The notes beneath the pieces are model-generated. The model made no database searches, was not told where the DNA came from, and worked only from the letters and a program-made list of their open reading frames with translations. DNA of 64,000 nt from Bactericera cockerelli (Eukaryota > Arthropoda > Insecta > Hemiptera > Triozidae), in NCBI GenBank assembly GCA_024516035.1, contig CM044967.1, forward strand, positions 2,970,859 through 3,034,858, written 5' to 3'. The first letter of the stretch is position 1. Each line of letters opens with the position of its first letter. Below, in pieces: positions 12,485 through 39,600 of the stretch. Made by a program: the position numbers and the translations under genes.

Positions 12485-12639
12485 TTTGGTAGTGACCTAG
12501 AGCTACTCGGCGTGGGTGGGAAGCCCGGGGTCGCGGTTCGTGACATGGGCCCGCACAGTCACCACACCCTAACTTCGCACCGTGGTCCCAGCTCACTCTT
12601 TCTGCTGAGCGAAACCAATACGGTGCGCCGGTACACCAG
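12485..12639 (+). CDS. cac: cac exon 1: cytoplasmic N-terminal region before IS1
   Basis: Fifty-one codons plus AG. The end reads [17 protein letters not shown] and runs straight into IIEWPPFEY of exon 2; this S-S-L-F...RYTR stretch is the conserved segment just before IS1 in Cav2 channels. The acceptor is tgtttcag and the donor CAG|GTGAGT. The exon is GC-rich against its surroundings. The N-terminal half (G/H/P-rich, with a Met at codon 21) is poorly conserved in the family, so the exact 5' boundary is less certain than the 3' one. I found no upstream exon in 1-12484, so the initiator Met may lie outside the window. Both splice sites lie inside local repeat arrays. Confidence 0.9.
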
Positions 12640-15600
12640 GTGAGTAGCCCAACCGGTGAGGGTTGAATCAGGTGAGTAGCCCACCCGGTGAGGGTTGAGT
12701 GGAAGAGATTGCCGGTACACCAGGTGAGTAGCCCACCCGGTGAGGGTTCAGTGTGAGCGAAACCAATACGGTGCGCCGGTACACCAGGTGAGTAGCCCAA
12801 CCACTCTTTCTGCTGAGCGAAACCAATACGGTGCGCCGGTACACCAGGTGAGTAGCCCAACCGGTGAGGGTTGAGTGGAAGAGATTCGCCGGTACACCAG
12901 GTGAGTAGCCCACCCGGTGAGGGTTGAGTGGAAGAGATTCGCCGGTACACCAGGTGAGTAGCCCAACCGGTGAGGGTTGAGTGGAGGAGATTGCCATAGG
13001 CAATCAGAATTTTTTTTTCAGAAGTTATCGACATTTTAAATTTTTAACAACAATGAGTGAATTTTATTTTAATATTTAATATATTTTGAATGTATAATGT
13101 CCTTCAAATGTATTTTAAATGTAAATAAAATTTAATTTTATCTTAATTGTAAACATACAGTAATGTATAAATATACAGTAAATTGATTGATTGATAGGCA
13201 ATAGCCCCGCCCAAGTCTCCAGTGTTTAATGTTTAGTAAATGTGTTTGTATACGCATTATTATTCATGTACATCTAATACAACTTCTGATATTCATGTAC
13301 ATCTAATACAACTTCTGATATTCATGTACATCTAATACAACTTCTGATATTCATGTACATTGTACATCTAATACAACTTCTGATATTCATGTACATCTAA
13401 TACAACTTCTGATATTCATGTACATCTAATACAACTTCTGATATTCATGTACATCTAATACAACTTCTGATATTCATGTACATCTAATACAACTTCTGAT
13501 ATTCATGTACATCTAATACAACTTCTGATATTCATGTACATCTAATACAACTTCTGATATTCATGTACATCTAATACAACTTCTGATATTCATGTACATC
13601 TAATACAACTTCTGATATTCATGTACATCTAATACAACTTCTGATATTCATGTACATCTAATACAACTTCTGATATTCATGTACATCTAATACAACTTCT
13701 GATATTCATGTACATCTAATACAACTTCTGATATTCATGTACATCTAAAACAACTTCTTAATTTTCTGTTAATACTGATTAAAATAGAGAGGTTAGTTGA
13801 TGGCATGGATATTCAGAACTATTACCTGCTGATGAGAGCAAATAATCTCGAAACAGCTGTTCAGGTATGTTCTGATATTCATGTACATCTAGCACAACTT
13901 CTCACTTTTCTGTTTATACTGATTAAACTGAGGTTTATTTCATAATTATAAATGTCCAGACCATTTGTCAAATAAAAAAAAAGCTGGGGAGTGATGGTCT
14001 CTATCCAACTTTATTTGAAAAGTTGACTAAAAAAAACGCTTGCATACGAGTCTGCAACCATTTCGACATTTTCATCTTTACTATTCAAGGTCCAAAACCC
14101 AACTGACCAAATTTCGTATTGTGCGCATGACACATACCTTCTCTCTTCTCTCCCTCTACAATTCAATACTTCGCCATTGTGCGCATGACACACTCTTTCC
14201 CTCTTCTCTTAGGGTTGCAATATCGAAACGAAAATATCGATATTAGGTATATCGATAATATCGAAACCATAATATCGATATCCGATATTAGAAGACTTCT
14301 CTCCCTTTACAATTCAATATTTCGTTACATAATATCGTTACATAATTTCGTTACATAATTTCGTCACATAATTTTGGTTATGTGCCAGAGCAAAGACATG
14401 AAAATGTCAAAATGAAAATATTGTACTGATATTATTGATGTATTGAGGTAGTGCTATGAGTATTAGAGGAACTCTCGCAACCTCTGAAAATAATTGGAGG
14501 AAATCTTTTACTTGTAAGATGTTGTGTTGTTTTATTATTAAAACCATTATTTACAGCAACAAAAAATTGATGCACTCGTCAAAACTAAACTAACTCCATT
14601 CCATTGCTGCGCAGCGTGCAGCGAGTATGTGCATAAGAAGAGCTAGGAGAAGATGGAGGAGTAGAGAGTCGTTGTTGGGGTATGAAGATGGAATTGATCA
14701 TTGGAAAAGAGAGTAGTGACTGTGAAGAAAATATTTCAATTGAACGTTTTTTAAATAAAGTTTTTCACGGTTATACTAAAAAAAACTCCATTAATTTCAG
14801 ATTCATAATAGAATGGCCACCATTCGAGTATGCTGTGCTGTTGACCATCATAGCAAACTGTGTTGTCCTCGCTCTGGAAGAACATTTACCCAAAGGTGAT
14901 AAGACTGCTCTCGCAAAGAAACTTGTAAGTAAACTTTCCTTGTTGTCTTTGTTAATGTCAGCTTTAATTTAAACATGATTCCGACATCAGTAGCTTGATC
15001 GATAAGGCAGCGGACTTGTAACCTGGAGGTCGGTGGTTCAAGTCCCGGTTTCAGCGTAGATTTAGTAAAGCGAGTTTGAGTAGTTGTGATATCACGAAAG
15101 TGATTAACACAAATATGATAACTTAATTTAAACATGATGTGTTAATGATGATGATTTCTAATTATAAGGTTACTAATAATTTGGAAGAAAAAAATACAGT
15201 TAGTTTAAAAATAGTATATTTTAGCAATACATTTTTAGTTGCACAGATATTACACCTAAAAAGAACTTAAAAGGCAGGTGTTCCTCTCATTAGTATTGAT
15301 AGTTAATATAAATTGAAATTTTGCACATAGGTGCCTCGTTGGAGATAAGGAGGTAACACTTTAGGTTCTAGGTTAGTTAATAGGTGCAAATGTAAACCTA
15401 CACTTAAAAACAGCGTGGTATTTTTAGGATACCATTTTTTAGAGACATCTTCGTTTTAATTATCCTGTTATTATTTGGATTTATAAGTCTTTATGAGTAA
15501 CAGAAGCATTATTTGCATTGCTTCACATAAACTTCAGTGAAAGATAGGTACATAGTTCCATTTCGCTCTAGTTTTCTTTGTGTTTACTCAAATTTTATAA

Positions 15601-36600: not shown

Positions 36601-39600
36601 TGAAACTAGCAAAGATTGATCGTTAATTACACCAGTATTCAACCAATTACTGAAGTTAAGCAATGTCTAGCGTGGTGAGGACATGGATTTGTGATCCTTT
36701 CGATTTTGAATCCATCCACAGTCAAAATGGCAATCCATGGGTTGCTGATAGGTCCGGCCCCACTCACGCTCGCTGCGGTTAATTTGATTAGCTGAGTTGT
36801 TTGCCCAACCAATATTGGGTAAAACGCCCCCATTGTATTTTGTTGAAAGTAACGTTCAAGTCAAATAAATTCAACTCACAATAAAATTACATATTTGGGA
36901 CTCGAACATAATTATGTTGCTGTTAGTCAATAATTAGACACAAAACGACTTTTTCTTTCTTCTCATTTCAGGGTTCTACAAAACTCAATGGCAGCAACAT
37001 ATGAAGACATGGGTCCAATCACTAACTTCCGTATAGAAATGTCGATCTTTTACATTATTTACTTTGTAGTGTTTCCTTTTTTCTTTGTTAATATTTTCGT
37101 GGCCTTGATCATCATCACATTTCAAGAGCAAGGAGAAGCCGAGCTTCAAGACGGTGAAATAGATAAGAACCAGGTAAGAGAGACGGTGAAATAGATAAGA
37201 ACTAGGTAAGAGAATTTGAGCTGGGTCATGTGTCAGGCTGAAAACTAGTGAAAATAGCCTTTTAACGCCAAAAATCTATCATGACATTCCATTGATCCAA
37301 GCATTTGCAGTCGATGTGCTTACGCCGCTAGAAATGCGAAAGATCTAGCGCTTGGATCCGTGATCTATAGATCTGATCCCAACCAATGTTTGGATTTTTC
37401 CTCATAAAGTTGAGTTTTTGACCACATAAAAAGACTCTGAGGGTTAGGTGGTAGAAATACTTTGAGCATTACCCCAGTCTGGTGGTTACCTTTCACTAAA
37501 GAGTATTATTATTAGTATTTCAGGGACCATGATTTTTGAAGTAGATTATTTTACTACCTCTAGTCCAAAAAGTTAGTTCACATATTACTTCCACAAAAAG
37601 TATATTTTTTTCTAGATTCATTTTATTGGATATATAAAACATACCTAATAACATAAAAAAATCGTACTGGTAGGTACTCTAATATTGTTAATTTGTAAGA
37701 CATTAATGCATCAATTCGATACCAAGTTCAGCACTTGCGATACCAAAGGAGAAAGATGATTTCACGAACCGCATTAAAATCATTGATCTTTTGATTTTTA
37801 TACCTTTATAATTATGACTTTTCCCTAATTTTGAAAATGCAACATTATTAATATTTTTCTTTTTCTTTTACAGAAATCGTGCATCGACTTTGTGATAGGG
37901 GCTCGACCTTTGGAGCGTTATATGCCCAAACAGAGTAAAGCCCTCAAACACTTCATCTGGCGTATTGTTGTGTCGGATTATTTTGAATATTTTATCATGA
38001 TGTTAATTGTTTGTAATACCGTCCTACTTATGATGAAGGTAAGTGATAGAATTAAAAAACTCATACATTTTCACAATAGCTCTGTGATGCGGACCCCCAA
38101 TCAAATGAGAAATGAAAATTAATTTGAAACTGAGAGACGTGTATCTCTAAACTATAAATTAGATAAGTTGGATTTATATATCGCACCCTCAGAATTAGAT
38201 GGTGATATGTCAAAAATCATGAATTTTTTTTATTACTCTATCGAAATAAGCGAAACGAGACCTTTCGTTTGGTATAAGAATTATAATTCTAGCTCTTACC
38301 GTTCCCGAGATAGCGCTAGTGTTGTTTATTGATTATGTCAAAAAAGTGGAGGGACGTTGGAACAAGATGGTATTACGATCAGTTGTTACCAAGAGCTCCT
38401 TGGATCGAGACGTACAGTTCTTGGAATATAGTAATATTTGCGTAAGTTTTGATTTATCACTCTCTTTATTAAATTTTATTTTCAGTAATTGACATAAAAA
38501 CTGAATTGTGCATGATTTTTTTGAAATATCACTCTCTTTGTCGAACATTTTTTGTGTTTTGTCAAGGTAGAAATTACTAATACAAAAGATTATGTGTTAT
38601 ATTACTTTCTTTTATAAATTATTATTTTTTTTTTGGACTTAAAAATAATCTGGCCCGGTATTTTCGATATACACTTGAGAGCAATAAATTCGGGACAGGA
38701 CATTTCACCGTTTCAGTTGGTCCTGGTCAATTTGTGTGGCATGAAGTTGCTAAAGTATGCATATATTTGAAAAGCTTGTACTCATACCTTTCAGAAAATA
38801 CACAATGTGTCCGGGTTATGTACTATGCAACAATGATAATGGCCACTTTCCAGAAACACCTCATTTTGTTGATGAAAACACGTGCACCGAGGGTATTTTA
38901 AATTTGATTTTTTGTTGTGATAACGCTTTTTTTGCCAGTAAGTTATTGAATTTCCTTAAATGCAACACTATGAGGAAGGAAATTCAGTTGAATTTTTCTT
39001 TTCATCATGGAGACATCGCACTCCATAGCTGTGAAAGTGGTTTTACTTGTGAGTCAAGGTGTTAAGCAAAGAAATGTTGCTAAGGAGCTAAATTTGTCGA
39101 AGTCTAAGGTGAACATAATTTACCAAAGGTATCGGCAGACAGGTAGCTATGATCAGAGACCAGGATCTGCCAGACCAAAGAAGACAACTGCCGAGGAGGA
39201 CCAATATGGTGTCATGACAAGCTTAAGAAATCGAGACATGTCTGGTGTTGAGGTCCAACAGCAGCTTGTTATGGCCACTGGTGTTGATGTCAGCCCTTGG
39301 ACAGTAAGGAGACGCTTGAAAGAGAAAGGTCTCATACCAAGAAGAAAAGCTACGGGACCCAAACTCAACAGACAACACCGACAACGTCATTTACAATTTG
39401 CCCTTGAACACGCTGATTGAGGAAATGGGGAATGGGGGCACGTTCTGTCCACGGATGAGAGCCGACCCTGCTTGTTCTTCAATGACAGACGTAAAAGGGT
39501 GTATAGAAGACCAGGTGAACGGTATAATCAATGTTATATTCAAGAAACTGTGAGTTTTGGTTTAGGATCTTGTATCTTCTGGGGTGGAATCTCTATGGAA

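Follow-up and report, generated by a model that had tools for sequence, protein, structure and literature searches.

Why should tandem repeats within a gene fall on the ends of its exons? The question arises from cacophony (cac, CaV2) of the psyllid Bactericera cockerelli, which lies in a 64,000-nt stretch (GCA_024516035.1, CM044967.1:2,970,859-3,034,858, forward strand) that we call the window. The 34 donors in the window were mapped by hand, with exons compared with a Diaphorina citri orthologue; the flanks, read for further genes, hold one chitin-binding gene.

Junction Arrays in cac

Tandem arrays follow exons 1, 5, 6 and 21, and both TRF and the sequence agree with the seven, six, five and two copies that an earlier note had counted there. 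They also uphold its observation that each array is centred on the coding/intron junction: every unit combines the end of the exon with its donor and the initial bases of the intron. The features are listed below, with a slash at the splice junction and exons taken from the hand map and D. citri comparison.

12285..12502, + strand: repeated acceptor-like block, TGTGTTTCAG/TTTGGTAGTGACCTAGAG, directly upstream of exon 1; putative acceptor
12545..12639, + strand: cac coding exon 1 (MGPHSHH...RRYTR)
12594..12995, + strand: exon 1 junction array, seven copies of exon end plus CAG/GTGAGTAGCC, the later ones mixed with SINE-like pieces
19819..20052, + strand: cac exon 5
20020..20361, + strand: exon 5 junction array, six copies, unit 57 bp (one 56), TTAG/GTAAGA kept in all
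20677..20828, + strand: cac exon 6
20805..20959, + strand: exon 6 junction array, five copies, unit 30 bp (one 34)
24272..24285, + strand: exon 8b end and donor, TTGCAAAGCAG/GTA, with a 14-base copy 95 bp downstream
36972..37173, + strand: cac exon 21
37149..37213, + strand: exon 21 junction array, two copies, unit 32 bp

The seven copies of CAGGTGAGTAGCC found 3' of exon 1 by TRF and in the sequence (12637-12992) recur at steps of 32-64 bp. Unit lengths, compared by eye, follow no rule of being multiples of three. On the hand map, the true acceptors of introns 1, 5, 6 and 21 are all outside the arrays. The duplication at exon 8b scored 14, under the threshold for counting, and was left out of the totals.

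Does copy number vary? An error-rich second assembly copy of the cac locus lies ~77 kb upstream. Read by eye in this noisy sequence, its exon 5 array has four copies (six in the window), its exon 6 array five and its exon 1 array about eight (seven in the window); the 6 vs. 4 copies after exon 5 thus provide, at that resolution, the variation between chromosomes expected of a VNTR. Copies of the acceptor-like block upstream of exon 1 are also more numerous there. Because the exon 1, 5 and 6 arrays occur in both assembly copies, they do not stem from expansion of a single copy by the assembler. With the exon 5 array as query, the only two matches were the array itself and its counterpart in the second assembly copy, which sets it apart from introners, whose similar copies occupy many genome loci.

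Donors, Acceptors and Control Positions

Is the placement of these arrays at donors beyond chance, as had been proposed? In the window, local duplications span four of the 34 donors and none of the 33 acceptors; when the donor positions were shifted circularly, 5.4% of the shifts reached four (P = 0.054). Since the window alone was borderline, we examined further genes of the B. cockerelli genome, first in 26 stretches selected through matches to ion-channel domains and then in 20 myosin stretches. The myosin list and the statistic were set before scoring, and stretches were fetched without sight of their sequence. With these genes the proposal stood: across cac, channel and myosin sets combined, local duplications span 20/92 donors (cac 5/36, channel genes 8/36, myosin 7/20), 6/91 acceptors and 96/2,172 nearby intron positions, so that placement is not unrelated to exon edges. 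The pooled donors exceed the intron rate (P = 3e-9) and even twice that rate (P = 1.3e-4), P values that are optimistic because control positions are correlated.

Donor sites in the channel loci were first scored at a PWM score of at least 5 (41 donors) and acceptors at a score of at least 4 (44), leaving lower-scoring hits unscored. We left out repeat occurrences of an exon (L025:8264, L025:9774, L036:642, L034:2480, L032:754 and the L034 counterpart of the L025:366 exon) as well as two questionable donors (L024:4931, L028:5473), and in addition included L023:3062 and L025:366, giving 36 donors; 39 acceptors were kept after four were removed. L025:366 was counted as not duplicated, though in its L034 copy a duplication spans the donor. 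For myosin, 22 exon hits in the 20 stretches yielded 20 donors and 19 acceptors, with no exon present twice as judged from coordinates only. The cac totals omit the exon 33 donor (not located), the exon 1 acceptor (unproven), exon 8b and the neighboring gene's donor. Some of the automatic donors are probably wrong, and L054:621 seemingly lies inside a conserved exon.

Which property of donors could account for the excess? GC content alone does not: GC-matched intron positions predict 4.5 duplicated donors against the 20 observed, a 4.4-fold difference. Nor is a motif-driven hotspot supported: away from known exon ends, 15/299 donor-like sites lie in duplications, which is no excess, and 4 of those 15 turned out to come from two genuine exon ends with their copies. 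The intron control is higher for myosin (17/182), and the rate at positions drawn at random from the window plus flanking sequence (111/1,200), partly attributable to satellites, is above the intron control.

The comparison with acceptors is less clear-cut. Pooled acceptors show no excess over introns (P = 0.21), and the pooled donor/acceptor difference (P = 0.005) weakens to 0.06 at the strictest threshold and is not significant within any gene set (P = 0.05, 0.11 and 0.27). Arrays at acceptors also exist, more rarely than at donors (L027, L041, L058 and L060). Thus, the scan of donors against acceptors and other positions that had been suggested for this genome, carried out here on a sample of genes, found the donor excess, with the qualification that acceptors seed arrays too.

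Where do the copies go? In the pooled sets, the best copy is always in the adjacent intron—downstream at 20/20 donors and upstream at 6/6 acceptors—and at 17 donors there were no inverted or upstream copies. The exon end is sometimes copied into the following intron dozens of times, and some copies are dispersed with spacers rather than tandem (L032, L043 and L059). Duplicated exon ends are GC-richer (0.50 vs. 0.42, P = 0.003).

Origin of the Arrays

We lean, with modest confidence, toward explaining the arrays as minisatellites of exon edges: tandem duplications that cross the edge of an exon and are hidden because the original splice site continues to be used, combined with an extra bias to exon 3' ends. 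Short stretches, mostly an exon 3' end with its 5' splice site, would be duplicated in tandem by slippage, unequal exchange or end joining. Copies would accumulate in the adjacent intron, where their number would then change fast. They would survive because splicing keeps to the original, exon-proximal site and removes them with the intron, leaving the mRNA unchanged. Duplications within exons would be eliminated by selection, and those across acceptors would persist more rarely, since they put a rival acceptor ahead of the real one. The donor excess in our sample (20 vs. 4.5) is larger than such shielding predicts and points to the additional bias, which would most simply be mutational and strongest where exon ends are GC-rich. 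We infer a mutational cause for the arrays.

Could the donors merely be easier to see? Minisatellites might be equally frequent everywhere, with donors standing out because the conserved exon copy keeps old duplications recognizable and because the window was selected as a striking one. The borderline result for the window alone fits this reading, and a conserved master copy should, by reasoning, raise the detectable rate up to ~2-fold. The donors, however, exceed both twice the intron rate and the GC-matched rate, and acceptors are not above introns although their exon side is just as conserved; we consider the absence of any special bias rather unlikely. Selection might instead favor extra binding of U1 snRNP, the repeated 5' splice sites strengthening the first donor or suppressing premature polyadenylation while themselves remaining unspliced. 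The copies are indeed sense-oriented and downstream of the donor, GT is kept in 95 of the 98 detected, a retention that could instead reflect selection, and mismatches are fewer at donor bases (36/882) than at exon bases (64/882), a comparison biased by indels, copy picking and shared descent. Yet duplication in cac shows no link to intron length (P = 0.41), the exon 6 array includes a copy without GT, and arrays occur at acceptors as well, all of which make U1 binding an unlikely driver.

The earlier note had also raised selection for several equivalent donors, which might make splicing robust or yield protein variants. The exon 5 array would suit such a role: it alone keeps an open reading frame, which runs to donor 4, and splicing at donors 2-4 would lengthen the protein in frame by 19, 38 or 57 residues. 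Against it, introns 1, 6 and 21 carry an in-frame stop ahead of the second donor (at 12641, 20838 and 37192, respectively), so that a stop precedes every later donor; of the five exon 6 copies, one has lost GT and another has GTTAGT; and the exon ends set by the first donor are the same in D. citri and B. cockerelli. The idea has become very improbable. Equally hard to credit, and to our minds the least probable, is multiplication of copies by mis-assembly of noisy reads or by unpurged haplotypes. The error-rich second cac copy lends it some substance, as do other genes that are apparently present twice in the assembly, but three arrays recur in both copies of the locus, substitutions distinguish the copies within one array, and a preference for exon ends is not expected of an artefact.

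A bolder form of the mutational reading, which we regard as a tentative possibility, is that a germ-line process tied to exon 3' ends amplifies the exon end and donor into the following intron genome-wide, at about one donor in five, continually creating spare splice sites and intron length. Such a process might depend on R-loops, on pausing of the polymerase or on splicing machinery at the 5' splice site.

Relation to Known Repeats

How do the arrays compare with repeats already described? Ordinary minisatellites (VNTRs) consist of head-to-tail units in variable copy number. The junction arrays are of this kind, with head-to-tail units in the minisatellite range (~10-100+ bp; roughly 17-170 bp in the psyllid) and variable copy number; unlike ordinary VNTRs, their position is tied to exon ends. 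Tandem duplication has reportedly also given rise to introns in another study. The consulted part of PMC2891723 describes intron gain by tandem duplication involving AG/GT, a motif shared by the psyllid duplications; such gain would place an intron at a new position, with duplicated AGGT as its donor and acceptor, whereas the exon joins next to the cac arrays agree with the D. citri protein. In the consulted part of PMC10809524, introns such as those of polyubiquitin UBC are embedded in coding tandem repeats with dual-specific splice sites, one AGGT serving as donor and acceptor. Splice sites lie within repeat units in both systems, but the shared AGGT and an intron length that is a multiple of the unit do not apply to cac, where the true acceptors are elsewhere and the extra units are intronic.

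The nearest case that our literature search returned is the human one of PMC2812944, which in the part consulted reports internal tandem repeats at exon-intron boundaries of genes in segmental duplications and recent paralogues, with 27 intron modifications retained after manual inspection and novel introns formed. The psyllid arrays resemble these as variable tandem repeats across an exon-intron boundary; they differ in occurring in conserved single genes, with intron positions unchanged, copies on the intron side only and about one sampled donor in five involved. Within the sources so consulted, the search found no report of such exon-end arrays, and donor-seeded repeats look like a form of repeat expansion within genes that has not been described.

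What would such a pattern mean? If it holds genome-wide, tandem duplication would be non-random relative to gene structure, and a link of transcription or splicing to local DNA duplication would become testable. Gene prediction at array-bearing junctions would often be wrong. In the psyllid genome, spliceosomal choice among near-identical neighboring donors could be studied in many natural experiments, with alleles differing in copy number, and the arrays would be a source from which introns could lengthen, exons could extend and new introns could arise.

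Junction arrays in the calcium channel gene

Do tandem arrays really sit on the exon–intron junctions of a single gene? The earlier note had described such arrays—copies of exon end, donor, and first intron bases—after exons 1, 5, 6, and 21, with 7, 6, 5, and 2 copies, respectively; TRF and reading of the sequence return the same positions and copy numbers. The window (G000:C13:2970859-3034858, in an assembly of 565 Mb and 1032 contigs) carries the gene for a voltage-gated calcium channel alpha-1 subunit of the cacophony/CaV2 type (hereafter cac), whose top solved-structure matches are CaV2 chains of the N, P/Q, and R types. 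The closest full-length protein is from Diaphorina citri (89% identity); a shorter Cacopsylla melanoneura protein matches with 91% identity across 62% of the query. Both species are psyllids, which makes the source of the window a psyllid or a near relative of one. We placed 34 donors by hand in the window and checked the exons against the D. citri protein.

A second, error-rich assembly copy of window 1-30914 lies ~77 kb upstream (G000:C13 about 2891878-2922840; in stretches L003-L007). It is 94-97% identical to the window up to position 7107 and 72-83% further on, with many homopolymer changes, and is probably an unpurged, unpolished second haplotype. By eye, its exon 5 array has 4 copies, its exon 6 array 5, and its exon 1 array ~8. 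Because the exon 1, 5, and 6 arrays recur there, the cac arrays are real and variable, their copy numbers being approximate. Within cac, local duplications take in ~6% of single positions in introns and 1.7% of those in exon interiors. Taken alone, the window is borderline: at least four donor hits arise in 5.4% of circular shifts of the donors, in a window selected for a pattern already noticed.

Several other features of the gene were recorded. Three exon pairs resemble mutually exclusive alternatives: 4a/4b (window 16474-18854), 8a/8b (22634-24282), and 23a/23b (42806-45981). An apparent frame break in exon 10 (window 27943-28137), absent from the D. citri protein, is possibly an assembly error. 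In the D. citri gene model P0237, the peptide encoded by exon 19 is repeated, which hints either at a duplication in a further psyllid or at a faulty prediction. Introns hold what we take to be transposable-element reading frames, one reverse-transcriptase-like (25806-27470) and one split and transposase-like (38992-40038).

Recurrence in other genes

How widespread are such arrays in this genome? A genome search for the ion transport domain (PF00520) gave 102 matches, from which we sampled 6 gene-dense stretches and then 20 stretches of 1.1-3.0 kb around matches. All were picked without prior sight of their sequence; the second batch, however, was chosen once the arrays of L025, part of a sodium channel gene, were known, and it includes another assembly copy of the same gene. 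In L025, the exon end ...FYKCLDENDELLPVE and its donor are repeated across ~3.9 kb (31 downstream copies detected), and 28 copies of the exon end ...NFNMLKKK were detected. In the other assembly copy, a third sodium-channel exon has a duplication spanning its donor. L024, from a T-type calcium channel gene, has two donor arrays. No arrays were found by TRF in L023 (L-type channel exons) or L028; L026, L027, and L029-L048 were assessed by the junction statistic rather than TRF. Most copies of a sodium-channel array (L025 about 2432-6312, L034 about 2346) continue into GTAAGAGAG, whereas GTAAAACT follows the final L025 copy and the initial L034 copy.

For myosin genes, both the list (20 stretches, PF00063) and the statistic were set before scoring. 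Local duplications covered 7/20 donors, 3/19 acceptors, and 17/182 intron positions (donors vs. introns, P = 0.004; donors vs. acceptors, P = 0.27). In one stretch (L058), a 22-bp unit, CACTTCCAG followed across the junction by GTACACTCAGTTT, recurs from the end of the exon as far as the stretch reaches; in another (L065), a 30-bp unit is repeated ~10 times.

Donors compared with control positions

The junction statistic is based on ungapped direct matches offset by 15-600 bp; the best one spanning positions -3 to +6 of the junction counts if it scores at least 15 (+1/-2). Pooled over one genome, ~90 donors, and three gene groups—with donors called automatically in genes other than cac and second copies left unpurged in the assembly—local duplications cover 20/92 donors, 6/91 acceptors, and 96/2172 intron positions. 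Donors exceed acceptors (Fisher P = 0.005), the intron rate (P = 3e-9), and the doubled intron rate (P = 1.3e-4), P values that are too small because adjacent control positions are correlated. Acceptors do not differ from intron positions (P = 0.21). Against GC-matched intron positions, 4.5 duplicated donors are expected and 20 seen (acceptors, 4.3 and 6). At thresholds of 20, 25, and 30, donors fall to 19, 16, and 15 of 92 with acceptors at 6/91 throughout, and the donor–acceptor P weakens to 0.06; in the separate gene sets it is 0.05, 0.11, and 0.27.

Could the donor motif itself seed duplications? The counts speak against this: of 299 donor-like motifs found elsewhere across the window and flanks, 15 lie in duplications; real exon ends thus matter, not the motif. 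Four of those 15 represent two real exon ends together with their copies: the donor of cac exon 34 (G000:C13:3048938) is copied 181 bp downstream, and that of an exon in the adjoining CBM_14 (chitin-binding) gene (G000:C13:3090568) is copied 245 bp downstream. As counter-evidence, random positions in the window and flanks fall in local duplications more often (111/1200) than the intron control, an excess that stems partly from satellites, among them 42-bp units arrayed over 4 kb.

Anatomy of the duplications

The best copy always lies on the intron side, downstream of donors (20/20) and upstream of acceptors (6/6). At 17 donors, a search reaching 1.5 kb, or as far as the stretch extended, turned up neither inverted nor upstream copies. 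The duplicated segment takes 3-138 bases from the exon and 8-187 from the intron; where the junction falls within the unit therefore varies. Duplicated exon ends are richer in GC than others (0.50 vs. 0.42, P = 0.003) and carry slightly higher-scoring donors (P = 0.04). Repeats centred on acceptors also occur:

Acceptor-centred repeats
L058, myosin stretch: units of ~104-118 bp, each containing the tract, the AG, and the start of the exon (by eye)
L060: 38 bp
L041 and L027, channel stretches: acceptor-centred repeats
Block upstream of cac exon 1: possible acceptor-centred repeat

An interspersed element with core ACTTCTCACTTTTCTGTTTATACTGA has 12 matches in the window. It starts 12-15 bp past the donors of cac exons 16 and 25 (window 33112 and 50088) and also adjoins the copied donor in the chitin-binding gene next to cac. 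Part of it forms the unit of a 29-bp satellite of ~17 copies (window 13261-13758).

Mechanism and relation to known repeats

The observations establish the position, direction, variability, and excess of duplications at donors. What maintains them? As read from sequence, splicing at a later copy in cac introns 1, 6, and 21 would run into a stop beforehand, so the productive donor must be the first one; in the exon 5 array, donors 2-4 would keep the frame. Copies would leave with the spliced intron and be mostly neutral, and the donor-specific frequency would need either a bias in mutation or weak selection favouring U1 binding. Such selection would fit the retention of GT in 95/98 detected copies and the donor bases differing least among copies, although indels and shared descent bias this comparison; however, duplication and intron length are not associated in cac, the exon 6 array contains a decayed donor, and arrays exist at acceptors too. 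With moderate confidence, we prefer a mutational bias at donors.

Published accounts report tandem repeats at human exon–intron boundaries (PMC2812944), human tandem repeats with embedded introns and dual-specific splice sites (PMC10809524), and tandem duplication as a route of intron gain (PMC2891723, PMC4974935). Among the entries listed by searches of the open literature, which takes in a minority of subscription journals, none described arrays sitting at a large fraction of the donors of a single genome. We class the present arrays as minisatellites, distinguished by their anchoring to exon ends.
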